This document shows, piece by piece, positions 29,833 through 64,000 of a stretch of 64,000 bases of DNA. Positions within the stretch are counted from its first letter, which is position 1, and every line of letters begins with the position of its first letter. Location of the stretch: positions 62,001 through 126,000 of the forward strand of contig JAUIFE010000019.1 in assembly GCA_030429565.1 (NCBI GenBank), read 5' to 3'. This DNA comes from Holophagae bacterium (lineage in GTDB: Bacteria > Acidobacteriota > Holophagae > Acanthopleuribacterales > Acanthopleuribacteraceae). The translations under genes and the position numbers were made by a program. Under the pieces are notes generated by a model. The model searched no databases and was not told where the DNA came from. It saw only the letters and a program-made list of their open reading frames with translations.

Positions 29833-29854
29833 CCTCTGGAAGGAACCTTACCCC

Positions 29855-31167: not shown

Positions 31168-31182
31168 CCGAAAGGAGGCACC

Positions 31183-31452
31183 GTGGATGAAACCGTCATT
31201 TTAGAACTGGCCGCCGCCGCCATTCGCACCGCCTTCCTGGTGGCTGCGCCCGCGTTGCTGTTGGGTTTGGTTGTCGGTGTCGCCATTTCGCTGTTCCAAG
31301 CCGTGACCTCGATTCAAGATCCCACCCTGAGTTTTATCCCCAAAATCCTCGCCGTCATGCTGGTGATTTTGGTGGCCTTTCCCTGGATGATTTCGGTGAT
31401 GCGCGACTTTACCCTCGAACTCTTTTCCAATCTCAATTACTACGTGCGTTAA
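31183..31452 (+). CDS. fliQ: flagellar export gate protein FliQ
   Basis: GTG start at 31183 after AAAGGAGG. 89 residues with two membrane helices and the family motif ISLFQAVTSIQDPTLSFIPK between them. Full length for FliQ, which packs around the FliP/FliR channel. Confidence 0.96.
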   Translation: MDETVILELAAAAIRTAFLVAAPALLLGLVVGVAISLFQAVTSIQDPTLSFIPKILAVMLVILVAFPWMISVMRDFTLELFSNLNYYVR

Positions 31453-31474
31453 CGGCCGTACACCAAGGTCCTTT

Positions 31475-32263: not shown

Positions 32264-32275
32264 GGGGGGTGGCGC

Positions 32276-37771: not shown

Positions 37772-37785
37772 GAGGGGGATTGATC

Positions 37786-38550
37786 ATGCCACAGGTGCGG
37801 ATGGAAGAAAAAACCATGGATTATGAAGCACGACAACACCAAATTGAAGACTACATTCCTTTAGTCAAATACTTGGCGCATCGCATTTCGATGAAGCTGC
37901 CCAACCATGTCGAAATAGACGACTTGGTGAACTCCGGCATTATCGGCTTGATTGACGCCATTGAAAAATTTGATCCCAGTCGCGGGATTAAGTTCAAAAC
38001 CTACGCCGAGTTCCGCATTCGCGGTGCGATCTTCGACGGCTTGCGGAGTTTGGACTGGGTGCCGCGATCGGTGCGCAAACAAAAGAAACTGGTCGAACAG
38101 TCCTACGCCCAACTGGAACAACAGCTCGGTCGTCATGCCACCGACGAAGAGTTGTCGAAAGAATTGGGTGTCGGCCTGGACGAGTTCTACAAAATCCTCG
38201 ACAACCTGAAAGGGGTATCGCTGGGTAAGTTCGTGGAACTCAACAACAACGACAGCCAATCCAACGGTGAAGGTGACTCCGTAATTGCCTTTATCCCCGA
38301 TCGTTCGACCGACGATCCGTACCACAAGTTTCAGAAGCACGAACTCACCGAAATCCTGTCGGAGGCGATTCGCAAGTTGCCCGACAAGGAGCGTTACGTC
38401 GTGTCGCTGTACTATTTCGACGAGCTGACCATGAAGGAAATCGGCACCGTTCTGAACATTACTGAATCGCGCGTGTCGCAGTTGCACACCAAGTCAATGA
38501 TTCGGTTGCGCGACGCCCTCAAAAGTTACGTTGAAAACAAAGGTCGTTAA
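37786..38550 (+). CDS. fliA: flagellar sigma factor sigma-28 (FliA/WhiG)
   Basis: ATG 37786 lies seven bases after GGAGGGGG and gives 254 residues. Region 2 is seen in LVKYLAHRISMKLPNHVEID, DLVNSGIIGLIDAIEKFDP and GIKFKTYAEFRIRGAIFDGL. Region 3 is SVRKQKKLVEQSYAQLEQQL, and region 4 is LPDKERYVVSLYYFDELTMK then ITESRVSQLHTKSM. It directs late flagellar and chemotaxis genes. No flgM anti-sigma gene is seen in the window. Confidence 0.96.
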   Translation: MPQVRMEEKTMDYEARQHQIEDYIPLVKYLAHRISMKLPNHVEIDDLVNSGIIGLIDAIEKFDPSRGIKFKTYAEFRIRGAIFDGLRSLDWVPRSVRKQKKLVEQSYAQLEQQLGRHATDEELSKELGVGLDEFYKILDNLKGVSLGKFVELNNNDSQSNGEGDSVIAFIPDRSTDDPYHKFQKHELTEILSEAIRKLPDKERYVVSLYYFDELTMKEIGTVLNITESRVSQLHTKSMIRLRDALKSYVENKGR

Positions 38551-38581
38551 ACGCTAACCCCCTGTTTTCGGAGCCCGCCCT

Positions 38582-39619
38582 ATGGCCAAAATTCTCACTC
38601 AGGAAGAAGTTGACGCACTGCTTAACTCGGTTCAGTCCGGTGGCGACGCCGCGATTGAAGACGAGCCCGGGGACGCGCCCGGGGCGAGTATGTCGTCGAC
38701 CGGCACCATTGAACGCGAGAAACCCAAACAGAAACAATACAAAAAGGTCATGGTCTACAACTTCAAAAGACCCGACCGTGTTTCCAAAGAGCAAATGCGT
38801 TCGTTGCACTTCTTGCACGACCGTTTTGCGCGTAACTTCTCGTCATCGCTGAGTGCCTACCTGCGGACGATTTCCGAAATCAACCTCGTTAGTGTTGAAC
38901 AGCTCACGTACTCTGAATTTTTGCTGTCGTTGCCCGATCCCACCTGTTTCTCTTCCATTGCGATGAAGCCGCTGGAAGGGAACGCCGCGTTGGAGATCAA
39001 CCCCTCGCTTGTTTTTCCCATTATCGACAAAATGTTGGGCGGTCCCGGCGAACCCCTCACGGAAATTCGCGCCATGACCGCCATTGAACAAAACATATTT
39101 GAAGCCATCATTCGCTTGATTCTCGAAGACCTCAAAGAGGTGTGGAAGCAAATTGTCAATCTCGACATGCGCATCCACGCCCAGGAAACGTCGCCACAGT
39201 TGGTGCAAGTTGTTGCCCCGAACGAGGTTGTCGTTCTGATCGTGTTCGAGGTCAAGTTCCAAGAAGTGGTTGGCATGATGAACTTTTGTATTCCATCAAT
39301 CATCCTTGAACCGATTGCCAAAGAGTTCGACCAAGAGTGGTACACCGGTTACAAGAAAAGTGAGACCTTCGAAGAAGCCAAAATGTTGTCTGAGCTGATG
39401 AAACGCGTGTACTTCGATGTCGGCGCCGAGATTCGTGGTTCGACGATCACGGTGCAGGACTTCCTCAACCTTGAGCGCGGCGACATCATTGAGCTGACAA
39501 CGCGGCCGGAAGACCCGCTCATGTTGAGTGTGAACCACGTGCCCAAGTACCAGGGTCAGGTTCTGATTAACGACGAGATTCGAGCGTTTCAGATCCACGA
39601 GAAGATCGAACCCCTGTGA
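38582..39619 (+). CDS. fliM: flagellar motor switch protein FliM
   Basis: 345 residues. The N-terminal ILTQEEVDALLNSVQSGGDA is the usual start, with a DALL motif, then a Gly/Asp-rich linker. The middle domain (YNFKRPDRVSKEQMRSLHFL to about 240) is CheC-like, and the C-terminal SpoA domain ends with DIIELTTRPEDPLMLSVNHV and KYQGQVLINDEIRAFQI. It binds phospho-CheY and reverses the motor. It is followed by a 514-base gap containing repeats before fliN. Confidence 0.96.
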   Translation: MAKILTQEEVDALLNSVQSGGDAAIEDEPGDAPGASMSSTGTIEREKPKQKQYKKVMVYNFKRPDRVSKEQMRSLHFLHDRFARNFSSSLSAYLRTISEINLVSVEQLTYSEFLLSLPDPTCFSSIAMKPLEGNAALEINPSLVFPIIDKMLGGPGEPLTEIRAMTAIEQNIFEAIIRLILEDLKEVWKQIVNLDMRIHAQETSPQLVQVVAPNEVVVLIVFEVKFQEVVGMMNFCIPSIILEPIAKEFDQEWYTGYKKSETFEEAKMLSELMKRVYFDVGAEIRGSTITVQDFLNLERGDIIELTTRPEDPLMLSVNHVPKYQGQVLINDEIRAFQIHEKIEPL

Positions 39620-39784
39620 GTTGAGGAAGGCCACGCCCTTTGTCCCATTGTGGCTGGTATCGCCTTGGATGATGAGGCGCGTGCCCGCCGCCGTCTTTTA
39701 CCAGACCGGGTAGCGCGCTTCGTCTGGTCCGGTTCCGCGTTGACGGATTCGTGGCCCAAGCTCTGCCGTGCGAATCGGCCGTCC

Positions 39785-39845
39785 GTGCCAAACCCTCCGA
39801 GGCGGTAGCGGCAAAAAAGGAGGGTGAAAGCCGGGTCGCCCTTCC
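39785..39845 (+). repeat. 61-bp dispersed repeat, family 1, copy A
   Basis: Begins GTGCCAAACCCTCCGAGGCG and ends TCGCCCTTCC. Same length, same ends and same orientation as copy B, 104 bases downstream, and copy C at 46606. The middle is variable. Confidence 0.75.
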
Positions 39846-39888
39846 AAACAACGCGCAACCAAGCTAGGTCGTGAACTCCGGCGGCGAC

Positions 39889-39949
39889 GCGCCAACCCTT
39901 CCGAGGCGGAAAGCGAAACGAGGGGGGACGCTAACAAAAGCGCCCTTCC
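39889..39949 (+). repeat. 61-bp dispersed repeat, family 1, copy B
   Basis: Begins GCGCCAACCCTTCCGAGGCG and ends AGCGCCCTTCC. Exactly 61 bases, like copies A and C. Confidence 0.75.
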
Positions 39950-40133
39950 CACTTGTGTTTGGGGAACCTTTCGCCTAAGCTGATTTTGTGACTTCCAGTC
40001 CTCAGCAAACACCTTGGCGTCAAACCACTTTTTCCGGTTTGGCGAACTTGATCATCGGCGTTTTGTGCCGATGGGGTAGGTAGGGACCGGCGTTGTGACG
40101 CGCGTGTCGCGGGACGAAGTAGGGAAGGGGCCG

Positions 40134-41150
40134 ATGACCGACTTAAATACCAACCAGGTGGAAACGCTAGGCATTGTCAGTGAAGTGATTGCCGATGCCG
40201 CCTTTACCGTGTTGAGCATGTTGCTGGGGCGCGAGATCGATTTGATCCCGTTGCGCTCGGCCTTTGTCGGCATGGGTGAAATTCAAGACCACAATTGGGA
40301 TACGATCATTGTCGCCAAAGCCAGCTTTACCAAAGGCTTGGAAGGCACCATTTACTTTGTCGTCAACATCGAGGACGCCACCCGCATTATCGATTTGATG
40401 CTTGGTGGTGAAGGTGAAAACGCCGCCGAGCTCGACGAGGACAGCTCCGACGCCTTAAGTGAAACCATCAACCAGATCATGGGCGCCAGTTGTCAAACAT
40501 TGACTGAAAAAACCGGCGACAGTATTTCGATTGGCCAGGTAGAGATTGTGACCGGCTCCGATACCAGCGTGGTCAGTGAGCAGGTTGAGGCCGACGAGTT
40601 TCCCGGCATTGAGTTCGATATTGAACTCGAAGGGCTGATTAACTCAAAAATGTACGTGGCGTTGAACAAAACCCTGCTCGATTCGATTGACGCCGGGCTC
40701 CATAAAAAACCCGAGGAACCGGCGCCGCCACCACCGCAAGCGGCACCCCCGCCCGCCGCCGCCGCGCCGCCGCCAGGTGCTGCGCCGCCTCCCGCCGCCG
40801 CGCCGCCGCCCGGCGTTGCGCCCGCCGCCGCTGCGCCACAGGCCGCGTACCATTACCAGCCGCCGGCTGCGCCACCGCCACCCGATATCGGCGGCAATAT
40901 CGATCTGCTCATGGATATCGAGTTGCCGGTCATTATTCGCATCGGTCGCACCGAACTCCTGTTGCAGGACATTTTGAAGCTCACGCCGGGTTCAATCATT
41001 GAGCTCAACAAAGCGATGGACGATCCAATCGACATGTTGGTGAACAACAAGCTGGTCGCGCGCGGTGAGGTCGTGGTGGTCGACGGCAACTTTGCCTTTC
41101 GAATTACCGAGATCGTGTCGCCGCAGGCGCGCATTCGCAGCTTGGGTTAG
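40134..41150 (+). CDS. fliN: motor switch protein FliN, long FliY-like form
   Basis: ATG 40134 follows AGGGAAGGGG, giving 338 residues. The N-terminal part to about 200 looks CheC/FliY-like (VLSMLLGREIDLIPLRSAFV, DALSETINQIMGASCQTLTE). A striking Pro/Ala/Gly linker of about 50 residues follows at about 203-255 (repeats of APPPxxAAPPP), then a SpoA domain (ELPVIIRIGRTELLLQDILK, GSIIELNKAMDDPIDMLVNN, FAFRITEIVSP). Short FliN at 29539 has only the last part. The stop overlaps the stop of the convergent next gene by four bases. Confidence 0.9.
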   Translation: MTDLNTNQVETLGIVSEVIADAAFTVLSMLLGREIDLIPLRSAFVGMGEIQDHNWDTIIVAKASFTKGLEGTIYFVVNIEDATRIIDLMLGGEGENAAELDEDSSDALSETINQIMGASCQTLTEKTGDSISIGQVEIVTGSDTSVVSEQVEADEFPGIEFDIELEGLINSKMYVALNKTLLDSIDAGLHKKPEEPAPPPPQAAPPPAAAAPPPGAAPPPAAAPPPGVAPAAAAPQAAYHYQPPAAPPPPDIGGNIDLLMDIELPVIIRIGRTELLLQDILKLTPGSIIELNKAMDDPIDMLVNNKLVARGEVVVVDGNFAFRITEIVSPQARIRSLG

Positions 41151-43206: not shown

Positions 43207-44610
43207 TTAGTTGTCGGCGACTTGGTCGGCTAAGGCTGTCAGTGCGTCCATCTCGCGGTAGAACCCTTCGATGATCCGTTCCGGGTCGGGGACCAGGCCT
43301 GCGTCCGTGGCAATGCCCAGACGTACTTGGCCCGCGTAACTCAAAATGCTGATGCCCATGCCGACGCGACCCGAGCAAGGTACCCAGAACATCATGTCGC
43401 TGATCTCGCTGCCTGCCAAAAACAGCGGCGCGCGCGGCCCCGGTACGTTGGTCATGACGCAGGTCGTTTTGGCGCCGAAAATGTTGACGATAATTTTCTG
43501 GATATCGGCCGGTGTCATGCCGACCGCCTTTAACATGCCAAACGCGACCACCGCCTGCTGGCTTTCCTTGATGTAGTCCATACGTTTTTTGAGTTCGAAT
43601 AGGCGGTCGAGTGGGTCCTCGATACCAATGGGTAACTCCAAGAAAACCAGCCCGAATTGGTTGCCCAGTTCGTCCATTTTGTCGAGTGGACGCACGTTGA
43701 CCGGCACCGCCGCGCGGAAGTTGAGATCGTCCGTGTCTTGCTCGCGCTCGCGTAGGTAACGGCGCAAGCCGCCCGCCATTGCGGTCAGTAGCACGTCGTT
43801 AACCGTGCCGTTGGTGACCTGGCGAATTTTCTTAACGTCTTCAAGGGGAACTGCTTGTGACCAGGCGGCGATTTTGGGGACGCCCAGGTCGCCGCGAAAG
43901 AGGGTGTGCGGATCCGGCGATTTGAGCACCAGGCTCGCCGCCGTGGCTGCGCCTTGGGTGCCCTGCTTGGCAAGGTCGAGGATGCGTGTCGGATGGCTGA
44001 GTACGTCAATCGAATCTTGCACGAACTGCTCCGACACTTTGAGCGTCGTATCCCAGGCTTTAGCGGCCTGCTTGAACAAATTACCCGAGCCGCTTAAGCG
44101 GGGTCGGGGTTTGTCACTTTGTTTTAGTGAGGCTTCGGCCGATTCCGCCGTTAGTGAAATTAACACCGAAATCAAGGCGATGCCGTCGGCGATGCAGTGG
44201 TGAATTCGCATAAAAAGGGCGTTGCCGTCTCCGAAACCATCGAGGATGGTCACGTGCCATAGCGGCCGCTCAAAATCCAAGGGTTGGCTGAGTAACTCGC
44301 TGCAGCGTTGTTGTAGGGTCGCTTTATCGCCTGGCTGCGGCAGGACCTCGTAGCTGAGGTGGTTCTCCAGGCTGAATTCGGGATCCTCTTCCCAGTGCGG
44401 CGTTTTGAGGATCGGCGCGTCGACGACCTTTTGGCGAAAACGCGGGTAGCGCAACAGACGATCTTGCAGGGTTTTGCGCAGTTGGTCTGGATCGATTGGG
44501 TCGGCAAAGTGCATGACCCCGGAGACCATCATTAAGTTGTCCGGTTCCTCCATGTGGCGCCAAGCGGCGTCGACATTGCTCATGGATTCCTTTTGGGGGG
44601 TGGCGGGCAT
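43207..44610 (-). CDS. wax ester synthase/acyl-CoA:diacylglycerol acyltransferase (WS/DGAT)
   Basis: A 467-residue enzyme that transfers acyl groups from acyl-CoA to fatty alcohols or diacylglycerol to make storage wax esters or triacylglycerol. The catalytic HHxxxDG motif is intact at 137-143 (HHCIADG). Other family features are PRFRQKVVD, ERPLWHVTILDGFG, the NDVLLTAMAGGLRRYL motif, and TNVPGPRAPLFLAGSEI near the C terminus. ATG 44610 has AGGAG six bases upstream. It is a single gene and indicates neutral lipid storage or surface lipid synthesis. Confidence 0.95.
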   Translation of the reverse strand: MPATPQKESMSNVDAAWRHMEEPDNLMMVSGVMHFADPIDPDQLRKTLQDRLLRYPRFRQKVVDAPILKTPHWEEDPEFSLENHLSYEVLPQPGDKATLQQRCSELLSQPLDFERPLWHVTILDGFGDGNALFMRIHHCIADGIALISVLISLTAESAEASLKQSDKPRPRLSGSGNLFKQAAKAWDTTLKVSEQFVQDSIDVLSHPTRILDLAKQGTQGAATAASLVLKSPDPHTLFRGDLGVPKIAAWSQAVPLEDVKKIRQVTNGTVNDVLLTAMAGGLRRYLREREQDTDDLNFRAAVPVNVRPLDKMDELGNQFGLVFLELPIGIEDPLDRLFELKKRMDYIKESQQAVVAFGMLKAVGMTPADIQKIIVNIFGAKTTCVMTNVPGPRAPLFLAGSEISDMMFWVPCSGRVGMGISILSYAGQVRLGIATDAGLVPDPERIIEGFYREMDALTALADQVADN

Positions 44611-51262: not shown

Positions 51263-52684
51263 TCAGGCGTCACGGCTTGGGGCCGACCCGCTTTTGCGGA
51301 ATAAGGCACATTGGGTGGGTGGCCCGTATGCCTCGTGAACCGGTCCAATCGCGTGGTAGGCGACAGCATAGCCGTATTTGGCCGCCACCGCCTCGGCCCA
51401 GGCGTGAAACTCGGCGCGTGTCCATTCGAAACGGTGGTCGGCGTGGCGCATGCGGTCGGCCGGCATCTCGGGGAACAGCGCGTTGTACTCGCGGTTGGGT
51501 GTGGTTACGATGATCACGGCCGCGCCCGTGCCCGCGAAGACGTTGTGGGCGGTGAGCCCGAGCCGGTCGGCGTCGATGTGTTCGATGACCTCGACCAAAC
51601 AGGCGGCGTCAAACCCCTGCAAACGGCGGTCGTGGTAGGCCAAGCTGCCGTGCAGTAAGCTAATGCGTTCCCGTTCCCGTTCGCTTTTTTGCTCGAGTTT
51701 CAGGCGGCGTGCGGCAATTTCCAGAATGCGGTGGCTGACATCCATACCAACGATGCGGGAAAATTCCGGCTGTTCCAACAGTTTTTTGAGCAACTTGCCT
51801 TCACCGCAGCCGAGATCGACTACCGAACGCACCTTTTCCGCCTGGAGCAGTTGCACCACCGTCTCCAGCCGCGTTTGGTTGAGGTTCATTGGTTTTTCGA
51901 CCGATGCTTCGACTTGTTGGTCGTCCGGCAGATCTTCCGGCAGCGATTCCTCGCGGAAGAGTTGTTCAATGGCGGCGTTGGCCAGCGCACGTCGGTTGAC
52001 CATATAACGCCGCGCAATCGTTTCACGATGCGGGTGGTCTTTCAACCAACCCTCGCCGTGGTTCATCAACTTTTCGATTTCGGCAGGGCCGATATAATAA
52101 TGTTTCTCGCGGTCAAGGGCCGGGATCAAAACGTAGAGATGGCTCAGTGCTTGGGTGAGCGGTATCTGGTGGGTGAGCGTTACGCTGAATACCGAGGCGC
52201 CGCCCCATTCGGGAAAGGCCGTATCAAGCGGGTGTTCTTGAGCCTCGACCTGATAGCCCAGCGGTTCAAACAAGTCGCGCAGCACTTTTTCACCGCCGCG
52301 CACCGGCAACACCGGCAGATGGAACGCAAGCGGGATGGCTTGCTGCACCAACTCGGGTCGTTTTTTGCAATTGCCGGCAAGGGCGGTGCCGAACACCTTG
52401 GAAATGGCGGTACTCAAAAACGACGAGGCGGCATAGGGCCGGTCGTTGACGTAATGGCCCAGCGTGCGCGAGGTGCCTGGTGGCGCCTTGAACGAGCGCA
52501 CCAGCGCGATCGGATCGATTTCCAGCAACAGTGCCGCCGTGCAGCGCGTGTCGCTGCTCTCCGGGTAAAACACGAGCGCTTCGCCGTAGCTCAGTTCGAA
52601 GTTGTGCACGCGGTCTGGATTTTTGTGCAGCAGGTAACCCAAATCCTGCGCGGGCTGGTGGGTGGTGGAAATGGTCAGCAGCAT
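51263..52684 (-). CDS. hen1: bacterial Hen1 RNA 3'-terminal ribose 2'-O-methyltransferase
   Basis: 473 residues. The N-terminal half (to about 265) is the Hen1-N domain that activates Pnkp ligase. The C-terminal methyltransferase has the SAM motif VVDLGCGEGKLLKKLL (288-303), the metal and catalytic motif EVIEHID (365-371), and RHADHRFEW (413-421) supplying the further His. It methylates the 2'-OH of the 3'-terminal ribose at a cut site during RNA repair, which protects against re-cleavage. It starts 30 bases after the Pnkp gene stop, with AGAGG before the ATG, so it is in the same operon. Confidence 0.94.
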   Translation of the reverse strand: MLLTISTTHQPAQDLGYLLHKNPDRVHNFELSYGEALVFYPESSDTRCTAALLLEIDPIALVRSFKAPPGTSRTLGHYVNDRPYAASSFLSTAISKVFGTALAGNCKKRPELVQQAIPLAFHLPVLPVRGGEKVLRDLFEPLGYQVEAQEHPLDTAFPEWGGASVFSVTLTHQIPLTQALSHLYVLIPALDREKHYYIGPAEIEKLMNHGEGWLKDHPHRETIARRYMVNRRALANAAIEQLFREESLPEDLPDDQQVEASVEKPMNLNQTRLETVVQLLQAEKVRSVVDLGCGEGKLLKKLLEQPEFSRIVGMDVSHRILEIAARRLKLEQKSERERERISLLHGSLAYHDRRLQGFDAACLVEVIEHIDADRLGLTAHNVFAGTGAAVIIVTTPNREYNALFPEMPADRMRHADHRFEWTRAEFHAWAEAVAAKYGYAVAYHAIGPVHEAYGPPTQCALFRKSGSAPSRDA

Positions 52685-52714
52685 GACAGCCTCTCGTTTG
52701 ACGGTGTGAGTCGG

Positions 52715-55273
52715 TTACAGACGGGGGTCGATGGGTTCGGTTTCCAGCGCAGCGACGGCGATGACACATTCGTGAACGCGCGAAATGGTGTCGCCCTCGG
52801 CCCAGCGCGCCAAACCTTCCATGCCGAGCGCCCATTCGCGCACGGCATTGCGGTGTTTGAGTGTCAGGCCGCGTTGGCGCAAGCGTTCCAATTGCTCGGG
52901 TTCGGTATAGTCGGGGCCGTAGATGATGCGCAGGTAATCGCGTCCGCGACATTTGATCGCGGGCAAAACCAGGCGGTTTTCTTCGCAGACCGCCATGAAG
53001 GGGATCGGTTTGACGACCATGCCCTCGCCGCCGGCTTCGGTCATGTCTCGCCACCACTCGGTGACGGCGGCTTCGGCGTCGCGGTCGGCCAACTGCAGGC
53101 GGCGGTACCGCGTTTTCTGCAGTAGCTCGGGATCGGCGTCGGCCAGACGGTCGGCCATCGCCATGTGCCACAAGTGATCCTTGTCGAAATGGGCCTGGCC
53201 CTCGCTTGCCAGAATATGAAACGGCGCGACGCGCAGCCCTTGCAAGCCGTCGGTGGCCCAACAGTAAGTGCCGTAAGCACGGCGGTACTTGTCCAGGTTC
53301 TCGGCGCGCTTTTGCCAAGCGGTGAGTTTGTCGTCGAGCGCCAGACCGCGGTCCGTGGCTTGGCGCAGCGCGCTGATCGTGGCGGGAATCGCCGCGCCGG
53401 CGGCCGCCCCGACACGGGCGTATTGGTTTTGCAGTAAGTCCAAACCCTTGGCCGACCAGGGCATGATTTCGCAATCCAATGTCAAACGATCCGTGGCCAG
53501 TTCACGCCACAAACCGGCTTTTTCGACGGCCGCCGCTAATCGCGTTAAAAACGCCTGTTCCAAGGCCGCCTCGGCAAAAAAGCGGCGACCGGAGCGGGTG
53601 TAAACCGTGCCCAAAACGTCTTCTTCCAGGTTAAAGGCGTGACGCGCGGCGGTGACGTCGCGACAGACCTGAACGACGGCGCGCGAGCCCATGTGTTTTT
53701 CCTGGCAAATGACTTCCTCGATGTCTTTTTTGCGGTAATAGGCAAAGGCTTCTTCGGGGTGTTCCAGGTAGCCGTCGCGCTTACTGGTTTCAGGTGGCGC
53801 CATGGTGGCGGGTATGTAAGTCAGCAGGCGCGGATCGATGGCAAACCGGCTGATGACCTCGACCGCCGCCATGCTGTATCCCTCGCGAATGGTGATCTGG
53901 CGATTGAAACGCGTGTTGATGATGCGTTTGCCGCGCACATCGTCCAAATAGAAGGTATTTGCCCCCTGGCCGTTGGGCGCCTGATCTTCGGTATTGAGTG
54001 GCTTAACCGGTTCGTAGTGAAGCGCGTGCGCTGGTTCTTCGACCAGCTCGCGTTCCGGCCAGCGCAGCGCGGTTAGCTTGCCGCCGAAAACACAGCCGGT
54101 ATCCAAACAGATGGTGCGGTTGACCCAGGTCGCCGTGGGCACCGGCGTGTGGCCGTAAACGACTGTCGCCTTACCGCGATATTCGGCGGCCCAATCGTAG
54201 CGAACCGGTAAGCCGTAGTTGTCGGTTTCCCCCGAGGTCTCGCCGTAAAGGGCAAACGAACGCACGGCGGCCGAGGCGCGACCCGCCATCGATTCCTTCA
54301 TGCCCGCGTGGGCGACAATCAACCGGCCGTCCTCCAAGATGAGGTGGCTGACCAGGCTGTTGATAAAGGTGCGGACGCGGGCGCGAAACGCTTCCGATTC
54401 GCCTTCCAACTGGTTGACGGTGGTTTCCAAGCCATAAGTAAGTTTGACACGGCGACCGGCCAACCAGCGTTCCAGCTTGTTTTCGTGGTTGCCAGGCACG
54501 CACAGGGCGACGCCGGCGTCGACCATGTCCATTGCCAAACGCAAGACGCGGTTGCTGGCCGGACCCCGGTCGACCAGGTCACCCAAGAAAATGACACGGC
54601 GTTTTTCGGGATGGCTGACGGTAAAACGCGCCGCGTCACCGCTGCCGGTTTCCGTGATCTGGTAACCCAATTTGGCCAGCAAGGCCAGGGTCTCGTCAAA
54701 GCAACCGTGAATGTCGCCAATGATGTCGAACGGACCGCGTTCATGGCGTCGATCCGGCCACATCGGCTGGACTTCGAGGGTAGCGGCATTGACGGCCTCT
54801 TCGCCTTCGAGGCGGAACACATGGTGGAAGCCTTCTTTTTTCAGGTGTTTGATGGAACGACGCATGTCGCGGTGCTGGCCGCGTACCACGTGCGGCCCGA
54901 AGTTGCGGTCCGGTCGTTGGTCATTGCGCGCCAGGCAGAGAGCTTCGGGCATGTCGAGCACGACGGCGACCACGCGGGCGTGGTAACTTTTGGCCAGTTT
55001 TACCAGCGAGGCGCGCGCGTCTTGTTTGACGCTGGTGGCGTCAATCACCGCGCGTTTACCGCGTTTCAAACGCAAACCGGCCCAGTAGTGCACCAAGTCA
55101 AAGGCGTCTTTCGAGGCGGTTAAACTGTTCTCATCATCGCAAACCATGCCGCGACAGCGGTCGGAAGAGATGATTTCCGTGGGTAAAAAGTGCTTGGCGG
55201 CAAAGGTTGACTTGCCGCTGCCGGAAGGGCCGATCAACACGATCAGCGATAATTCGGGGATCGAAAGCTTCAT
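52715..55273 (-). CDS. pnkp: polynucleotide kinase-phosphatase-ligase Pnkp
   Basis: 852 residues, the full three-domain enzyme of bacterial RNA repair. Kinase: P loop GPSGSGKS at 15-22. Metallo-phosphatase: DIHG at 187-190, GDLVDRGP at 231-238, GNHENK at 261-266. Ligase/adenylyltransferase: lysine motif KHMGSR at about 525, with later IYGPDY and TEPEQLER regions. It end-heals cut RNA (5' kinase, 2',3' phosphatase) and, together with Hen1, seals it. All three catalytic centres look intact. It is the first gene of the operon with hen1. Confidence 0.95.
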   Translation of the reverse strand: MKLSIPELSLIVLIGPSGSGKSTFAAKHFLPTEIISSDRCRGMVCDDENSLTASKDAFDLVHYWAGLRLKRGKRAVIDATSVKQDARASLVKLAKSYHARVVAVVLDMPEALCLARNDQRPDRNFGPHVVRGQHRDMRRSIKHLKKEGFHHVFRLEGEEAVNAATLEVQPMWPDRRHERGPFDIIGDIHGCFDETLALLAKLGYQITETGSGDAARFTVSHPEKRRVIFLGDLVDRGPASNRVLRLAMDMVDAGVALCVPGNHENKLERWLAGRRVKLTYGLETTVNQLEGESEAFRARVRTFINSLVSHLILEDGRLIVAHAGMKESMAGRASAAVRSFALYGETSGETDNYGLPVRYDWAAEYRGKATVVYGHTPVPTATWVNRTICLDTGCVFGGKLTALRWPERELVEEPAHALHYEPVKPLNTEDQAPNGQGANTFYLDDVRGKRIINTRFNRQITIREGYSMAAVEVISRFAIDPRLLTYIPATMAPPETSKRDGYLEHPEEAFAYYRKKDIEEVICQEKHMGSRAVVQVCRDVTAARHAFNLEEDVLGTVYTRSGRRFFAEAALEQAFLTRLAAAVEKAGLWRELATDRLTLDCEIMPWSAKGLDLLQNQYARVGAAAGAAIPATISALRQATDRGLALDDKLTAWQKRAENLDKYRRAYGTYCWATDGLQGLRVAPFHILASEGQAHFDKDHLWHMAMADRLADADPELLQKTRYRRLQLADRDAEAAVTEWWRDMTEAGGEGMVVKPIPFMAVCEENRLVLPAIKCRGRDYLRIIYGPDYTEPEQLERLRQRGLTLKHRNAVREWALGMEGLARWAEGDTISRVHECVIAVAALETEPIDPRL

Positions 55274-55428: not shown

Positions 55429-56619
55429 TTAGCCGAGCGCACCCATGCCGAAAAAGACCTGTTTCTTGAGGAATCGGTAAACCCAATAATCTTCGGGGAT
55501 CTCTTCATCGGGCAAGTGGTGCGAGTGGCGCGGCTCAATCGATTCAATTTCGCTGAGTGCATCGCGCGTGCTGTAGTCGGTGGCGCCGTGCTCGCGAATG
55601 AAGCCGGCCAGCTCCTGCGGATGTTCCAAAATAACGCAGCCCTTGGTGCGGTCTTTGACAAAATTTTGGAAACCGCGCAAATAGGCGCTTTCATTGATGG
55701 TTGAGAACAAATCGTCGCGGTTGTCCTGCACGCGGTCGGTGGCAAACGACAAAGGGGGACAGGGCTCAATGCTGCCCTCGGGACCGATGTGAAAACCCAG
55801 GCCCGTCGCCGCCGGGCAAAAAGCCTCGCCTTCAGCGGTCCAGTAGGTGTCGATGAGCAGAATCGGGTGTTTGCGGCGCAAACGCAGTAACCGGCGGCGC
55901 ATGTCGACAATTTGCGATTTCTGCATGCAGTATTCCGGGTGAGACTCTTCGCCGACCGGGCGGTAAATGTAGTACCACAGGTACATGGCGCCTTTATCGA
56001 TGAACATCTTGACGTAATCGTCCGACATCACCTCTTCCATGTTTTTGCCGGTGGCCGTGGTGGCAATTCCAAAGAATAATTTGTACTTTCTGAGGCGGTC
56101 GAGGCCTTCCATGATTTTGGTGAAGGTGCCCTCGCCGCGGCGCATATCGTTTTGGGTTTCCATGCCGTCGATGCTGATTAAGGGCGTGACATTGCCCAAT
56201 TTGGCCAGTTTCTGAACCACTTCTTCGCTAAAAAACATGCCGTTGGTGATGACTTGGAAGTAGCAGTCGGAATGGCGCTCGAAAATCGACAACAAATTCT
56301 TGTGCAAGAAGGGTTCGCCGCCAAGCAGCGTGTAATAGTAAGCGTTTTGTTTTTTTCCGTTTTCGATAATGGCGTCGATGTCTTCGGTGGGCATGTGACG
56401 CGCCTTGCCGACCTTTTCGACCCAACAGCCTTGGCAGCGCAGGTTACAGGTATTGGTGAGGGCCACAAACATGAAAGGTGGATAGAGCACGTCGTTTTTG
56501 AGCCGTTTCTTGTACGAGTGAATGGCTTTCATGCCTTTGAAGCCGTAGAGATAAGCTGCTTTGTAGGCGACCTTGGGCGCAAGTTCGGTGGCCATTCGGT
56601 AAGTGAAACGGGCGAGCAT
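55429..56619 (-). CDS. radical SAM enzyme, family not assigned
   Basis: 396 residues, ATG 56619 behind AAGGAG. The N-terminal part has an unusual basic helix (about 10-40). The radical SAM cluster motif CNLRCQGC has Cys58, 62 and 65. LGGEPFLHKN is the GGE(P) SAM contact. More cysteines occur in AFCPAATG and EPCPPL (about 18 apart) and in the C-terminal half, as in SPASM-type auxiliary cluster enzymes, but the spacing does not let me name one. Substrate is unknown. It sits close to the Pnkp/Hen1 operon and the cysteine desulfurase. Confidence 0.85.
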   Translation of the reverse strand: MLARFTYRMATELAPKVAYKAAYLYGFKGMKAIHSYKKRLKNDVLYPPFMFVALTNTCNLRCQGCWVEKVGKARHMPTEDIDAIIENGKKQNAYYYTLLGGEPFLHKNLLSIFERHSDCYFQVITNGMFFSEEVVQKLAKLGNVTPLISIDGMETQNDMRRGEGTFTKIMEGLDRLRKYKLFFGIATTATGKNMEEVMSDDYVKMFIDKGAMYLWYYIYRPVGEESHPEYCMQKSQIVDMRRRLLRLRRKHPILLIDTYWTAEGEAFCPAATGLGFHIGPEGSIEPCPPLSFATDRVQDNRDDLFSTINESAYLRGFQNFVKDRTKGCVILEHPQELAGFIREHGATDYSTRDALSEIESIEPRHSHHLPDEEIPEDYWVYRFLKKQVFFGMGALG

Positions 56620-56820: not shown

Positions 56821-58017
56821 TTACAGCGAGCACTCGGCTTCAGCCACGCTGCGTGGGTTTTCCAGGCACCAGGCGACGGCTTGTTTGAGCATGGCCGCCG
56901 CCAGTTCAATGTCGTCGCGGGTCGTGAAACGGCCCCATGAAATGCGCACGGCTTGACGCGCCTGCGCCGGCGTTTGGCCCATTGCCAAAAGTACGCGCGA
57001 CGGACCCGGCGTTTGGCTGCTGCAGGCCGCGCCTTGGGAAACGGCCAAACGCGGTAAACGGCCCAAGAGCCGGTCGGCCTCGATGCCGGGAAACCGCAGG
57101 TTGAGATTGTGGGCGAGGCGTGGTTTTAAGGCGCCGTTTATGCAGTAGCCGCCGTGCACATCGGTCAACTGTTCGCGCAGAAAGGTGCCGAGCTCGGCGG
57201 CGTGGCGTTGATCCTGGGCGCGTTCGGTAAGGCACAATTGCAAGGCGGTTGCGGTGCCGATGATGCCCGGGACGTTGAGCGTCCCCGAGCGAAAACCGCG
57301 CTGGTGACCGCCGCCGTGCATTTGCGCCGTCAGGCGGACGCGCGGGTTTTTGCGGCGCACCCACAAACCGCCTGATCCGCGTGGTCCGTAAAATTTGTGG
57401 GCGGTGAAGGTCAGCAAATCGATACCGGCCGCCTCCACGTCGAGCGCGATTTTGCCCGCCGTTTGCGCTGCATCACAGTGGAAAAACGCACCGTGCTGTT
57501 TGGCGAGCGCGCCGATGGCGTGAATGTCGTGCAATACGCCGATTTCGTTGTTGGCCGCCATCAACGAGACCGCCAGGGTGTCCGCTCGAAAGGCTTCGGC
57601 CAGCGCCGTCATGTCCAGGTGGCCGCGCTCATCGTGGGGCACATAGCTGATTTCGTAGCCGCGTGTTGCCAAATGAGCCAGGACATCCATGACGGCACTG
57701 TGTTCGGCCCGGCTTGAGATGATGTGGCGTTTGCCGTCGCCGTGGTGGTCGGCCAGCCCTTTGAGCGCCAAATTATTGGCTTCAGTGGCGCCACTGGTGA
57801 AGATGAGGCCGAGTGGATCGGCGTTAAATACCGCGGCGACCGCGTCCCGTGCCGCCGTAACCGCGCTGTTGACCCAACGGCTCGGTCCGTGGCCACCCGC
57901 CGGGTTGGCGAAATGGATACGCATGTAGGGCAGCATGGCCTCAATGACGCGTTCGTCCATGGGGGTTGTGGCCTGGTAGTCGAGGTAGATTGAACTGGAG
58001 TAATCGATATCGTTCAT
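56821..58017 (-). CDS. cysteine desulfurase, IscS/NifS type
   Basis: 398 residues, PLP enzyme. YLDYQATTPMDERVIEAMLP is the start of the class V aminotransferase fold. FTSGATEANNLALKG is the PLP phosphate region. The PLP lysine is in FTAHKFYGPRGSGG. The catalytic cysteine is in VSQGAACSSQTPGPSRVL. It releases sulfur from cysteine for Fe-S cluster or thiocofactor assembly. No iscU or iscA is adjacent. It is divergent from the gcvH-like gene and shares a 285-base region with it. Confidence 0.93.
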   Translation of the reverse strand: MNDIDYSSSIYLDYQATTPMDERVIEAMLPYMRIHFANPAGGHGPSRWVNSAVTAARDAVAAVFNADPLGLIFTSGATEANNLALKGLADHHGDGKRHIISSRAEHSAVMDVLAHLATRGYEISYVPHDERGHLDMTALAEAFRADTLAVSLMAANNEIGVLHDIHAIGALAKQHGAFFHCDAAQTAGKIALDVEAAGIDLLTFTAHKFYGPRGSGGLWVRRKNPRVRLTAQMHGGGHQRGFRSGTLNVPGIIGTATALQLCLTERAQDQRHAAELGTFLREQLTDVHGGYCINGALKPRLAHNLNLRFPGIEADRLLGRLPRLAVSQGAACSSQTPGPSRVLLAMGQTPAQARQAVRISWGRFTTRDDIELAAAMLKQAVAWCLENPRSVAEAECSL

Positions 58018-58302: not shown

Positions 58303-58767
58303 ATGATTGGATCCAACGAGACGATCGCGTATAAGCGGTCCCGTTTTTCGACCCGTCTTCCCCGTTTTTATCGCTTCACCCAGGCGCACTTTTGGATTGC
58401 CGGCGAAGACGACGGTATTCTGCGGGTCGGTCTTACCAAGTTTGCCACCCGCATGTTGGGTGATTTGGTCGAGACCGGACTTGAAGTGCCGGTTGGCAAA
58501 ACCATTCGCATTGGCGATGTGATTGGCTTCATTGAGTGTCTGAAAGCCGCGTCCGACCTCTACGCCGTTGTAGAGGGCGAAGTCACGGCCTTTAACGAGG
58601 CGCTCAACGAATCGCCGGAATGGTTGGTTAAGGACGGCTACGGCAAAGGTTGGTTGTACGAAGTTCGCGGGGTGGGTGAGCCCAAGGCCTTGGACGCCGA
58701 GGGATACGCCGCGTTTTTGGATGAAACAATTGATCGCATGATGGGAGAAGGTTATGGAGAGCCCTAA
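58303..58767 (+). CDS. GcvH-like lipoyl-carrier protein
   Basis: ATG 58303 with AGGA upstream gives 154 residues. The fold matches glycine-cleavage H protein: HFWIAGEDDGILRVGLTKFA, LGDLVETGLEVPVGKTI, and the lipoyl lysine in ECLKAASDLYAVVEGEV (Lys81, like ESVKAVSD in GcvH), then NEALNESPEWL and GYGKGWLYEV. None of the glycine cleavage genes (T, P, L) is next to it. Instead it overlaps a G3E GTPase by 14 bases. It may be the carrier for an Fe-S or isoprenoid process, as LbpA-type paralogues serve other systems. Confidence 0.85.
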   Translation: MIGSNETIAYKRSRFSTRLPRFYRFTQAHFWIAGEDDGILRVGLTKFATRMLGDLVETGLEVPVGKTIRIGDVIGFIECLKAASDLYAVVEGEVTAFNEALNESPEWLVKDGYGKGWLYEVRGVGEPKALDAEGYAAFLDETIDRMMGEGYGEP

Positions 58768-59884
58768 ACAATCGGCGCGTTACATTATGATCGGCGGCTT
58801 TTTAGGTGCCGGTAAAAGTACCGCCATTGCGCGGCTTGCGAGCCGTTTGGCCGATCGCGGCTTGCGCGTCGGACTAATCACCAATGACCAGGGCAACCGC
58901 TTGGTCGACACGTTGAACCTGAGCGCGCGCGGGTTTGACGTTGAAGAAATTCCCGGCGGCTGTTTTTGCTGCCGATTCGATTCCCTCATGCAGGCCGCTG
59001 AGAACCTGTCGCGCGAAACGCGGCCCGATGTGTTCATCGCCGAGCCGGTTGGGAGCTGCACCGATTTGGTTGCATCCGTGTCCTACCCGCTGCGTCGCAT
59101 TTACGGCGACCAGTTTCGCGTGGCGCCGTTAAGTGTGCTGGTTGATCCCCGTCGCGCGCGCCGCGTGTTGGGTTTAAGCGACGAGCGCGGCTTTTCCGAA
59201 AAGGTCACCTACATTTACTTAAAACAGCTTGAAGAAGCGTCGATGATTGTGATCAACAAATGCGACCTGCTCGACGACGGCGAATTCGACGCCTTGGCCC
59301 AGGCCTTGCGCGCGCGTTTTCCCCAAGCCGAAGTGCTCGGCGCCTCGGCCCGTGAAGGAACCGGGCTCGATACCTGGTTTGACGCCGTTTGGGAACGCGA
59401 TATGCCGCTTGGCGAAACCATGCCCTTGGATTACCGCATCTACGCTGAAGGTGAAGCACTGCTGGGCTGGCTCAACGCTTCCTTGAAACTCAAAGCGACC
59501 GAACTGCAAGACGGCGATCAGTTGTTGCAGAACTTGGCGCGTGCGGTGCAGCTTCGTCTCAACAGTCTCAACATCGAAATCGCTCACTTCAAAATGACCC
59601 TAGATCCGCACGACGGCAGTGGTGAAATTGCCGTGTTGAACTTGGTCGGTTCGGAATACCGCCCTGAATTCACGATGTCGCTGGTGGACCCACTCCAGAC
59701 CGGCGACCTGATTGTGAACTTGCGCGCCGAAGGGGAGCCGGCCCAACTGCAAGCAGTCCTCAACGACGCCATTGCGGCCTGTCAAACCCCTGGCATTCAA
59801 TGGGAACTTGAACATTTAGAATGCTTTAAGCCAGGCGAACCGAAACCCATTTACCGTATGGCGCATGCCGAGGCGGAAGTATAG
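58754..59884 (+). CDS. G3E GTPase, CobW-like metal/cofactor chaperone
   Basis: 376 residues. P loop GGFLGAGKST at 14-23, the cysteine motif GGCFCC at 68-73 (metal-binding GCxCC type), INKCDLLDD for guanine specificity, and a separate C-terminal domain (from about 245). G3E proteins load metals or deliver cofactors to target enzymes. The start overlaps the gcvH-like gene by 14 bases, an unusual and therefore telling coupling, so the two probably act together. The metal and target are unknown. Confidence 0.88.
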   Translation: MESPKQSARYIMIGGFLGAGKSTAIARLASRLADRGLRVGLITNDQGNRLVDTLNLSARGFDVEEIPGGCFCCRFDSLMQAAENLSRETRPDVFIAEPVGSCTDLVASVSYPLRRIYGDQFRVAPLSVLVDPRRARRVLGLSDERGFSEKVTYIYLKQLEEASMIVINKCDLLDDGEFDALAQALRARFPQAEVLGASAREGTGLDTWFDAVWERDMPLGETMPLDYRIYAEGEALLGWLNASLKLKATELQDGDQLLQNLARAVQLRLNSLNIEIAHFKMTLDPHDGSGEIAVLNLVGSEYRPEFTMSLVDPLQTGDLIVNLRAEGEPAQLQAVLNDAIAACQTPGIQWELEHLECFKPGEPKPIYRMAHAEAEV

Positions 59885-59923
59885 CGCGGATTTGCCCCGC
59901 TCACCCCACGAGGAAGCTTGCTT

Positions 59924-60841
59924 ATGACTGTTACCGATTCATCCGCGGCCGCCGCCGCCAAGCAGGACACCAAAATTGTGTTTTGCCACTGCGCCTACAC
60001 CAAGATTTTGCCCCAAAAAGTGAAGGACCAAGTGTTGGCCGGCCTCGACGCCGCCGACGTCGCTGTTGAAGAAGTTGAAGACCTGTGTCGGATGTCGGCA
60101 GAAAAAGACCCGCGTTTGCAAGAACTGGCCGGCGAGAAAACGCTCAAAATCGCCGCCTGTTTCCCGCGCGCCGTGAAATGGTTGTTCCACGCGGCGGAAA
60201 CCCCGCTCGACGACAGCCGTCACGAAGTGCTCAACATGCGTGAATCCTCGGCTGAGGAAGTGTGCAGCGCGATTGTTGGTGAAAGTGTGACCGTACCGGA
60301 AGAGGTACCCGAAGCCGTCGCTGAAAAAAGTCAACCTTGGAAACCCTGGTTCCCGGTCATCGACTTTGACCGCTGCACCAACTGCATGCAGTGCTTGAGC
60401 TTCTGCTTGTTCGATGTTTACGGCGTGTCCGCCGATAAAAAAATCCAAGTGCAAAACCCAACCAAATGTAAAACGGACTGTCCGGCCTGTTCGCGCGTTT
60501 GTCCCGAAGCCGCCATCTTGTTTCCCAAATACCGCGCCGCGCCCATTAACGGTGCGCCGGTTAGCGAAGCCGATTTGGATCGCGAAAAGATGAAGGTCGA
60601 CATTTCATCGTTACTGGGCGGTGACATTTACAGCCTGTTACGCGACCGCTCCACGCGGGCCCGATCGCGCTTTTCCAAGGAACGCGACGAGGAGCGTGCG
60701 CTCAAAGAACGCAAGCGCTGCCTGAAAAAGCTGCAAGAAACACTGGATATTCCGCAAGAACTGATGAATCAATTGCCTTCGTCCGAACAAATTCAAGATA
60801 AATTCAGTCAAGCATCGCAACGACCGAAAACTGAAGGCTAG
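59924..60841 (+). CDS. di-[4Fe-4S] ferredoxin with an extra N-terminal domain
   Basis: ATG 59924 follows GAGGA. 305 residues. The N-terminal domain (about 1-110) has FCHCAYTKILPQKV, VEDLCRMSAEKD and IAACFPRAVKWLF, the last resembling the AACSPRTHE-type segment of HdrA-like redox proteins. Residues about 145-205 form the ferredoxin: CTNCMQCLSFC and CKTDCPACSRVCPEAA, two clusters (CxxCxxCxxxC and CxxxCxxCxxxC). The C-terminal part is a charged helix. It is likely an electron carrier for neighbouring enzymes. The HdrA resemblance is suggestive only. Confidence 0.82.
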   Translation: MTVTDSSAAAAAKQDTKIVFCHCAYTKILPQKVKDQVLAGLDAADVAVEEVEDLCRMSAEKDPRLQELAGEKTLKIAACFPRAVKWLFHAAETPLDDSRHEVLNMRESSAEEVCSAIVGESVTVPEEVPEAVAEKSQPWKPWFPVIDFDRCTNCMQCLSFCLFDVYGVSADKKIQVQNPTKCKTDCPACSRVCPEAAILFPKYRAAPINGAPVSEADLDREKMKVDISSLLGGDIYSLLRDRSTRARSRFSKERDEERALKERKRCLKKLQETLDIPQELMNQLPSSEQIQDKFSQASQRPKTEG

Positions 60842-60913: not shown

Positions 60914-62638
60914 ATGAGTACCAGCGAATTTACCATCCCGAAGATGATTACCTCGCGCGCCGAACGGCCCGCCGAGGCCAACGTGCCGCCGACCCAAGAA
61001 CTGCGCCGCCAAATTAAAGACAAAGTGCGTGCCTTTGTGACCGAAAAAGCCTTGGTGCCGCCGATTCCCATCGACGACCTCAAAGTGTACGCGGTCGAGC
61101 TGGCCGAGCGCGAAGGGATCTCCCACGATTTCCTCAACTTTTTGGCCGTGTTAATGAACAACCAAAGTTGGGAAGACACACTGGCGACGATCCCTTTTAA
61201 CCGTCGCTTGCTGTTATTACCCAAGTGTTTGCGCACCGAAGCCGTGTGTCCGGCGCCCTTCGATGAGTTCGGCCTGCTGTGCAAACAGTGCGGTCAGTGT
61301 TCGCTGGAAGACCTGCAAATCGAAGCCGAGAAACTCGGGTACGCTGTGCTGATTGCCGAAGGGTCCGCGTTGGTCATGGCCATCATCGAAACCGGCAAAA
61401 TCGACGCCATTGTCGGTGTTTCTTGTCTATCCGTGCTCGAACGCGCCTTCCCCTACATGGAAGCCGCCGCCATTCCCGGCGTCGCCATCCCGCTGCTGCA
61501 GGGTGATTGCCTCGATACCAACGTCGATCTCGACTGGGTTTGGGATGCGATTCACCTGTCCAGTGAAGACAAAACGCGTCGGCTCAATTTAGAAACCCTG
61601 CGCAAGGATGTCAGCGGCTGGTTCACCGACGAACATCTGAGCCAAGTCATGGGCCCGGCCCAAGGCGAAAGCGAAAAAATCGCGCGCACCTGGCTGCGCC
61701 GCAACGGCAAACGCTGGCGCCCTTTTCTCGCCGCCTGTGTCGCCAAGGCGCTGGCCGAGGATCCCGAGGCGCCGTTGCCCGAGACCTTCCACAAATTAGC
61801 CGTCGGCATTGAATGTTTTCACAAAGCCTCGCTCATTCACGACGATATTGAGGACGGCGACGACCTGCGTTACGGCGAGCAAACCCTGCACGCGCTTTAC
61901 GGTGAAGCCATGGCCATTAACATCGGTGACTTACTCATCGGTGAAGGTTACCGCTTGATTGCCGAGTGCGAGGCGCCGCCCGCCGCTGTTGCTGAAATGC
62001 TGCGTATTGCCGCCATTGGTCAGCGCGATCTGTGTGTGGGTCAAGGTCGTGAGCTCGAGTGGTTGCGCGCGCCGCTGCCGCTAAAAGTGAACGACGTGCT
62101 GGGCATTTTCTCCAAAAAAACCGCGCCTGCTTTTGAGGTCGCCTTGCGTATTGGCGCCGCTTTCGCCGGTGCCGACGCCAAGGTTCACGATGCCCTGGCC
62201 ACTTACAGCGAGGCGCTCGGCATTGCCTACCAAATCCACGACGACTTACAGGATGCCGGCGCCGATGAGGCCGATGACATCGAAGCGCTGCGGCCTTCGG
62301 TCCTGCTGGCCATGGCCCATCAACGGGCCAAGGGCGAGGACAAGGCATTTTTAACCAAACTTTGGTCGCGCCAAACCGGTGACCATCCCGATTATGCCGC
62401 CGAAGTGAAGCGGCTGTATCAGGTTCACGACATTGTCGACCGCGCCCAACAAATGGAAAACACCTACCGCGACCAGGCCGTGAAATCACTGCAAGCACTG
62501 GAGAGTATTAACCTCAAAGGCTTGTTGCGACGCGTGCTTGGCAAAATTTTCGACGATCTTGAAATAAAGGATTGGTGCCGTGAGTATGAGGCTCGAAATG
62601 CTGCAGACCGCGAGGCTCGCACCCCGTTTACTGTCTGA
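60914..62638 (+). CDS. DUF116-polyprenyl synthase fusion protein
   Basis: 574 residues with two parts. Residues about 60-205 have a DUF116-like region with many cysteines: Cys105, 112, 123, 126, 129 (CKQCGQC), 171 and 199, able to bind a cluster or metal. From about 245 comes a full trans-prenyltransferase: GKRWRP (265-270, IPP-binding Lys/Arg), first aspartate-rich motif DDIED (310-314), GQGRELEW, KKTAPAF and second motif DDLQD (443-447). It makes C15-C20 or longer prenyl diphosphates. I have not seen this fusion described. Its 3' end overlaps the next gene by 59 bases. Confidence 0.85.
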   Translation: MSTSEFTIPKMITSRAERPAEANVPPTQELRRQIKDKVRAFVTEKALVPPIPIDDLKVYAVELAEREGISHDFLNFLAVLMNNQSWEDTLATIPFNRRLLLLPKCLRTEAVCPAPFDEFGLLCKQCGQCSLEDLQIEAEKLGYAVLIAEGSALVMAIIETGKIDAIVGVSCLSVLERAFPYMEAAAIPGVAIPLLQGDCLDTNVDLDWVWDAIHLSSEDKTRRLNLETLRKDVSGWFTDEHLSQVMGPAQGESEKIARTWLRRNGKRWRPFLAACVAKALAEDPEAPLPETFHKLAVGIECFHKASLIHDDIEDGDDLRYGEQTLHALYGEAMAINIGDLLIGEGYRLIAECEAPPAAVAEMLRIAAIGQRDLCVGQGRELEWLRAPLPLKVNDVLGIFSKKTAPAFEVALRIGAAFAGADAKVHDALATYSEALGIAYQIHDDLQDAGADEADDIEALRPSVLLAMAHQRAKGEDKAFLTKLWSRQTGDHPDYAAEVKRLYQVHDIVDRAQQMENTYRDQAVKSLQALESINLKGLLRRVLGKIFDDLEIKDWCREYEARNAADREARTPFTV

Positions 62639-63455
62639 CGCTAGCGAACTCGTCGCGCGCTTTACCTTAGATCAGCTTCATCCTCAGGGTGGGTTCGTCG
62701 ATCGCGGCGGCGATTGCGACCTGTATTACACCGTTTTCGGTTTAGGCAACCTGTTGGCTTTGCGCCAAACCGTGCCGCACGAGACCCTTGCCGGTTATTT
62801 GCAGCGCTTTGACGCCGGTGCCGAGCTCGACCTGATCCACCGTTGCGCGCTCGTGCGCGCCTGGGCCGGGTTGGGCGCCGTGCCGGCCGACTTGCGCGAC
62901 GGCTTGGCCGCCGGTATTGAAGCTTATCGCAGTGACGACGGGGGTTTTAACGAAACGCGCGGCGAAGCCGAGGGCAGCGCGTACGGCGCTTTCTTGGCCG
63001 TCGCCGCCTACCAAGATTTGGAACGCGACCTGCCGCAAGCCGAACGCGTGCTGGCCTCGGTGCAAGCCTTGGCCACTGCCGATGGTGGCTTTTCCAATTA
63101 TCGCGGCTTGCCGGTTGGGACCACGCCCGCTTTTTCCGCCGCCGAAAACGTGTTGCGTGCGCTTGGACAACCCCTCGACGCCGACCGCGCTTCGTGGCTG
63201 ATGGATCGCCGGCAACACGGCGGCTTTCTCGCCGTTCCGGGTGCACCCATGCCCGATCTCCTGTCGACCGCCGTTGCTTTGTACGCCTTGACCGCCATGC
63301 AGGTATCGCTCGATATTATCCGGGAACCCTGTCTGGATTACATTGATACCCTGTGGGTTAACACCGGCGCTTTTTACGGGAATTGGGGCGATGACATCCT
63401 CGATTGCGAATACACCTTTTACGGATTGCTCGCTTTGGGTTGTTTGGCGCTCTGA
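62580..63455 (+). CDS. prenyltransferase/squalene-cyclase-like alpha-barrel protein
   Basis: GTG 62580 lies eight bases after AAAGGA, inside the preceding gene. 291 residues. Repeats of the prenyltransferase beta/squalene-oxidase type occur: GGFVDRGGDCDLYYTVFGLG, DDGGFNETRGEAEGSAYGAF, DGGFSNYRGLPVGTTPAF and the final DDILDCEYTFYGLLALG. These build an alpha/alpha barrel. A D-C-x-Y pattern resembles the zinc site of protein prenyltransferase beta subunits, but there is no sign of an alpha subunit here. It might process the product of the upstream prenyl synthase. Confidence 0.82.
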   Translation: MSMRLEMLQTARLAPRLLSDASELVARFTLDQLHPQGGFVDRGGDCDLYYTVFGLGNLLALRQTVPHETLAGYLQRFDAGAELDLIHRCALVRAWAGLGAVPADLRDGLAAGIEAYRSDDGGFNETRGEAEGSAYGAFLAVAAYQDLERDLPQAERVLASVQALATADGGFSNYRGLPVGTTPAFSAAENVLRALGQPLDADRASWLMDRRQHGGFLAVPGAPMPDLLSTAVALYALTAMQVSLDIIREPCLDYIDTLWVNTGAFYGNWGDDILDCEYTFYGLLALGCLAL

Positions 63456-63593: not shown

Positions 63594-64000
63594 ATGACTG
63601 CGCTAGGAATGAATCGGACCTTTGAACCTGCTGATTTTGTTTGGGCCCACCAGACCCTGGTGGACGGCCTGCTCGGTTGGCGCGAGCTCGACGGCTTTTG
63701 GGAAGGGGAACTCTCCACCAGCGCACTGTCCACCGCCACCGCCGTTGTCGCCCTTTATTTAGTTGATAGCGACGGCTACCGACCCATGATCGTCGACGGT
63801 GTTCACTGGTTGGCGCGCAACGCCAATGCCGACGGTGGTTGGGGCGATACCGTGCGCAGCGATTCAAACGTCAGTACCACCGCCCTTGCCTGGGGTGCTT
63901 TGTCGCTCGTCGACGACCTGACCACCCGTGCCGCCGTTCAGCAAGCCGAAGCTTGGTTGACCGAGGAAATTGGCACGCCCACCCCCGAAAACATCGCCAC
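63594..64000 (+). CDS. squalene-hopene-cyclase-like protein, 5' part only
   Basis: ATG 63594 follows AGGAG. The gene runs off the window after 135 codons. The N-terminal part has [18 protein letters not shown] and a QW-type repeat [20 protein letters not shown] followed by [11 protein letters not shown], as in squalene-hopene cyclases and other triterpene cyclases. The active-site DxDD or similar motif lies outside the window, so a cyclase function cannot be verified. It follows the related protein by 138 AT-richer bases, which may carry a promoter. Confidence 0.75.

Follow-up and report, generated by a model that had tools for sequence, protein, structure and literature searches.

A DUF116-polyprenyl diphosphate synthase fusion is part of a co-inherited bacterial gene module that likely leads to a cyclised isoprenoid

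DUF116 proteins (PF01976 / COG1852 / arCOG02078) were considered in a 2015 comparative-genomics paper, which proposed a role in electron transfer, found them weakly linked to flavodoxin-like folds and already mentioned, as Psta_0175, the fusion architecture described here (PMC5898192). Archaeal members are described as carrying two N-terminal transmembrane helices (PMC5898192). Other described systems with which the present locus can be compared are the type I trans-polyprenyl diphosphate synthases (PF00348), the squalene-hopene cyclases and other class II terpene cyclases, the beta subunits of protein prenyltransferases, and the sHdr / lipoate-binding-protein system of sulfur oxidation. In the last of these, a GcvH-like lipoyl protein occurs together with Fe-S proteins.

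The locus lies in a 64,000-nucleotide stretch of DNA (the window) whose source is related to Acanthopleuribacter pedis (87% identity). First-pass annotation of the window had proposed a DUF116 domain fused to a polyprenyl diphosphate synthase, and both Pfam profiles matched the protein far above their cut-offs: PF01976 with an E value of 5e-34 (117.5 bits against 25) and PF00348 (polyprenyl_synt) with 3e-43 (148.4 bits against 27). Cysteines were found at exactly the positions it had listed (105, 112, 123, 126, 129, 171 and 199), and all seven were invariant in an alignment of 50 fusions from five phyla. The same seven, including the CxxCxxC motif, also showed no variation among 26 fused and 6 stand-alone DUF116 proteins, although identity for the stand-alone ones was only 19-25%. 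Neither of the outcomes named in that annotation as speaking against it, a missing DUF116 match or variable cysteines, was seen. The window protein is therefore like described DUF116 proteins in its profile match and shared cysteines and unlike them in being fused to a synthase; its N-terminus was modelled as helices that, judged by appearance, look soluble, in contrast to the membrane helices of the archaeal proteins.

In the synthase half, the GKR (residues 265-267) and both Asp-rich motifs (DDIED, 310-314; DDLQD, 443-447), as first annotated, were present and conserved among the 50 fusions, a few of which have N in place of K in GKR. A structure search matched its predicted fold to the geranylgeranyl diphosphate (GGPP) synthase of Pyrococcus, 1wy0 (E 1.6e-13, TM(target) 0.84). 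Fold, GKR and Asp-rich motifs are thus common to the fusion and to type I synthases, including the cargo synthase of family-2 encapsulins (NF041169); the fusion differs by its N-terminal DUF116 half and by scores that fall far short of all NCBIfam equivalog cut-offs. Ala305/Ser306 at positions -5/-4 and Phe302 at -8 before the first Asp-rich motif were invariant among the fusions. Ala/Ser at -5/-4 means that there is no aromatic stop at the usual place, which would allow a product of C20 or longer; on these grounds the fused synthase may make a polyprenyl diphosphate that is all-trans and no shorter than C20.

Fusions of this kind had been called unusual at first annotation, a view that did not survive a scan of GTDB species genomes, in which relatives were encoded in at least 568 candidate stretches; the architecture had, moreover, been noted before (PMC5898192). 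The 80 loci listed, all matching over nearly the full length, came from Verrucomicrobiota, Planctomycetota, Acidobacteriota, Lentisphaerota and Hydrogenedentota. A rare or chance fusion was ruled out by the number of matches together with the full-length homologues in five phyla. In even samples of genomes, the fusion was present in 4 of 197 Acidobacteriota and in 36 of 148 Planctomycetota, the latter counted as open frames of at least 550 aa with a DUF116 match. A maximum-likelihood tree grouped the sequences broadly by phylum and also contained several mixed clades of Acidobacteriota and Planctomycetota, which would fit transfer without proving it.

Table 1. Positions in the window of the fusion gene, its two domains and the neighbouring module genes.
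Feature	Position	Strand	Details and evidence
DUF116-polyprenyl diphosphate synthase fusion	60914..62638	+	574 aa, ATG start; ORF, Pfam, alignment
DUF116 domain, residues 67-213, seven invariant Cys	61112..61552	+	Pfam, alignments, model pLDDT 87.7
Polyprenyl diphosphate synthase domain, residues 255-492	61676..62389	+	Pfam, motifs, fold match 1wy0
Radical SAM protein, CX3CX2C (C58, C62, C65), SPASM-like C-terminal Cys (C268, C287, C328)	55429..56619	-	profile, alignment
IscS/NifS-type cysteine desulfurase	56821..58017	-	profile; neighbour in many loci
GcvH-like protein, paralogous to the ordinary GcvH of the genome	58276..58767	+	PF01597; lipoylation Lys79
CobW-family GTPase with GGCFCC	58754..59884	+	PF02492
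Ferredoxin-type protein: Cys-rich N-terminal domain (FDa) and 2[4Fe-4S] ferredoxin domain (FDb)	59918..60841	+	profile, clustering
PT-like alpha-alpha toroid	62580..63455	+	291 aa, GTG start; PF00432, overlap, co-occurrence
SHC-like class II cyclase	63594..64000, runs past the window to contig position 127474	+	626 aa; profile, alignment

All-against-all clustering and profile searches of the 80 loci revealed a recurring gene order: cysteine desulfurase (NifS), GcvH-like protein, CobW, FDa, FDb, radical SAM protein, fusion, PT-like toroid and SHC-like cyclase. This order was found in four or more phyla. In the window the radical SAM and desulfurase genes are divergently transcribed. The ferredoxin component comprised one or two genes, depending on the locus, with FDa and FDb encoded separately in most loci other than the window's. 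The GTG start of the PT-like gene lies 59 nt inside the fusion ORF (overlap 62580-62638), and the overlap was exactly 59 nt in most adjacent pairs, across phyla; this conservation suggests that the two genes are translationally coupled. In the papers searched we found no description of the module beyond the 2015 remark on the fusion (PMC5898192), and no measurement of a metal or Fe-S cluster on DUF116.

Several loci departed from this arrangement in other ways. In the window, as in Lentisphaerae-type loci (L044, L045), FDa and FDb form a single gene, from which the N-terminal domain of FDb has been lost. In Verrucomicrobiaceae loci L059, L060, L065, L069, L074 and L077-L081, which come from related genomes, the fusion was surrounded by five other recurring gene families and not by the module. 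Family '2' of the first clustering, a spurious ORF antisense to the fusion gene, was discarded.

The SHC-like protein has both the SQHop N and C domains, and DXDDT (354-358, outside the window, in L082) was found in every family member that spans the site, as PDADDT or, once, PDGDDT. A TAH stretch with an upstream Asp aligned with the VTAH of squalene-hopene cyclase, so that the D/H pair is kept as well. Because of these retained residues, proton-initiated cyclisation by the SHC-like protein is likely. The family is nevertheless separate from squalene-hopene cyclase and single-copy, and it also occurs where a genome (G198) has neither a squalene/phytoene synthase (SQS/PSY) member nor any other strong SHC match. 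The squalene/phytoene synthase family (PF00494) was absent from 6 of 23 fusion genomes, among them that of Sulfidibacter, which is complete; the general substrate is therefore not squalene made by that family, and the cyclase need not use squalene. As squalene was not available in this way throughout, we use the name SHC-like and not SHC. A squalene-using hopanoid pathway is weakened by these same genomes, and the natural candidate substrate would be the product of the fused synthase.

The PT-like toroid was nearest to prenyltransferase beta subunits and cyclase domains, its best matches among solved structures being the beta subunits of RabGGTase and FTase (E 2.5e-10). It resembles the protein prenyltransferase subunits in structure and differs from them in keeping only the Asp among the zinc ligands (Asp226), with Leu228 and Tyr50 replacing Cys and His. 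With two of three zinc ligands lost, a function as a zinc protein prenyltransferase was rejected. The lipoylation lysine of the GcvH-like protein was invariant in 15 sequences. The radical SAM cysteines given in Table 1 were invariant in their own alignment. Profile searches gave weak matches to HdrA-like ferredoxins. The pairing of a GcvH-like protein with Fe-S proteins recalls the sHdr system; unlike that system, the conserved set of the module is without HdrB and HdrC and has isoprenoid enzymes instead.

Co-occurrence was assessed for the PT-like toroid (match threshold E < 1e-20), which was present in 39 of 40 sampled fusion genomes and in none of 305 without the fusion. By phylum, it was found in 4/4 fusion genomes against 0/193 others in Acidobacteriota, and in 35/36 against 0/112 in Planctomycetota (Fisher 3e-33). 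None of the 19 Planctomycetota genomes with a stand-alone DUF116 had it. The fusion-free comparison genomes serve for the toroid only; counts for the other parts cover 23 genomes, all fusion carriers and some of them Verrucomicrobiota picked for a broken-looking neighbourhood. Among these, the module ferredoxin and CobW were present in all 23, and the SHC-like cyclase, the module radical SAM protein and the special GcvH in 22 each, mostly in single copy; the special GcvH scored clearly apart from the ordinary one. The module parts tested were retained even where genes were scattered, and in one such genome (L097) GcvH, radical SAM, FDa and FDb were still together. It is established that this two-domain protein is conserved and that the module to which it belongs is strictly co-inherited.

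AlphaFold gave pLDDT values of 84 for the whole fusion and 88 for DUF116 alone, the latter as a confident alpha/beta fold. In the DSSP secondary-structure string of this model, C82, C148 and C176 (model numbering) come after strands 1, 3 and 4, and the other four cysteines lie in the loop after strand 1, with the CxxCxxC loop before the next helix. Read from that string, all seven cysteines are predicted at one edge of a Rossmann-like sheet. A Foldseek search of the PDB with DUF116 returned nothing at E ≤ 0.001, and assignment of the fold from its best matches, which were poor dehydrogenase ones, was rejected; sequence searches of the PDB found no relative either. The first-pass suggestion that the cysteines suffice for a metal or Fe-S site has good support from their invariance, from their predicted place at one sheet edge and from the ferredoxin of the module. 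DUF116 is likely an Fe-S domain fed by that ferredoxin. Neither its sequence nor its fold led to a relative with a solved structure, so any enzymatic role given to it is a guess.

Sequence shows the domain identity, motif conservation, gene order, co-occurrence and conserved overlap; the module likely leads to a cyclised isoprenoid. We lean towards the reading that a dedicated pathway, not described before, produces such a compound and that the fusion is one of its enzymes, with DUF116 as the Fe-S redox half of the protein; for this pathway we infer Fe-S clusters, electron flow, an order of steps and a product. The synthase half would condense isopentenyl diphosphate into the all-trans polyprenyl diphosphate described above. 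The DUF116 half would hold one or two Fe-S clusters on its seven cysteines, receive electrons from the module's own ferredoxin, and perform or feed a reductive step, with either the isoprenoid or the lipoyl carrier as substrate. The PT-like toroid and the DXDDT cyclase would bind and cyclise the chain, and the radical SAM enzyme and lipoyl-type carrier may carry out further steps. Against this reading, plain terpenoid chemistry offers no evident role for the cysteine desulfurase, CobW or GcvH.

Two more specific forms of this reading can be given. It is conceivable, though unlikely, that DUF116, acting on the product of the fused synthase, removes the diphosphate reductively in the manner of IspH or reduces a double bond. 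We attach the same low weight to a bolder form, in which DUF116 would be a new Fe-S reductase fold acting directly on the polyprenyl diphosphates of its own synthase, within a previously unknown, phylum-spanning pathway in which this Fe-S domain works with a lipoyl carrier and a radical SAM enzyme, and with a class II cyclase independent of squalene, and which ends in a polycyclic isoprenoid, a membrane lipid or a cofactor.

The alternative that survives best is that DUF116 acts only as an electron relay, from ferredoxin to the radical SAM enzyme or the lipoyl carrier, or as a docking domain, the fusion serving to hold enzymes together with no DUF116 chemistry on the isoprenoid. Electron transfer and a weak flavodoxin-like link are what had been proposed for the domain (PMC5898192), and ferredoxin, radical SAM enzyme and lipoyl carrier are all in the module. 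However, the number of cysteines, seven and not four or eight, would allow a cluster with an open site, suited to catalysis. A pure relay would fit the same cysteines, as would structural zinc, and we regard the relay or docking role as possible but rather doubtful.

Stand-alone DUF116 genes bear on a further alternative. At single loci they adjoin genes for pyruvate:ferredoxin oxidoreductase (2-oxoacid:ferredoxin oxidoreductase), fmt (def-fmt) or an IspH-like gene, neighbours that all fit Fe-S or redox roles without being decisive. At the first annotation, a redox or metal sensor controlling isoprenoid flux and a channelled two-step enzyme had been offered as options. A sensor gating the synthase, with flux following iron, oxygen or redox state, would account for a Cys-rich domain joined to an enzyme and for its seven invariant cysteines. 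The same seven are kept, however, in stand-alone DUF116 proteins that have no synthase and lie beside 2-oxoacid:ferredoxin oxidoreductase or def-fmt genes, and the fusion goes with one particular biosynthetic module, not with isoprenoid supply in general. We therefore consider the sensor improbable; the two-step enzyme fits better with a co-inherited module of cyclases, radical SAM enzyme and lipoyl carrier. That the cysteines bind structural zinc, the fusion being an ordinary synthase with an accessory domain in a loose neighbourhood, is very improbable. CxxCxxC-type spacing is also known in zinc sites, but a loose neighbourhood does not suit the almost perfect co-occurrence of the toroid or the presence of the other parts even where the genes are scattered. 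In one planctomycete locus (L120, 1-3071), a stand-alone DUF116 gene lies beside an ORF joining LytB/IspH to a UbiA-like part.

About nine genes are kept together in Planctomycetota, Acidobacteriota, Verrucomicrobiota, Lentisphaerota and Hydrogenedentota, and their product must be worth keeping. If the fusion is indeed an enzyme of a dedicated pathway, DUF116, a widespread domain of unknown function, gains a testable enzymatic setting. The module also points towards a class II terpene cyclase with no need for squalene, and a new set of bacterial isoprenoids, perhaps lipid biomarkers, would become accessible to direct search.

Other genes in the window were also recorded. A Pnkp-Hen1 RNA repair pair occupies 51263-55273 on the minus strand, with Hen1 matching PF12623 (E 9e-109) and Pnkp having kinase, phosphatase and ligase domains (PF16542, E 6e-163). 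A wax ester synthase/diacylglycerol acyltransferase (WS/DGAT) gene lies at 43207-44610 on the same strand. From about 24994 to 41150 there is a long run of genes that, judged by their first residues only, look flagellar (hook, FlhB, FlhA, FlhF, switch-like).
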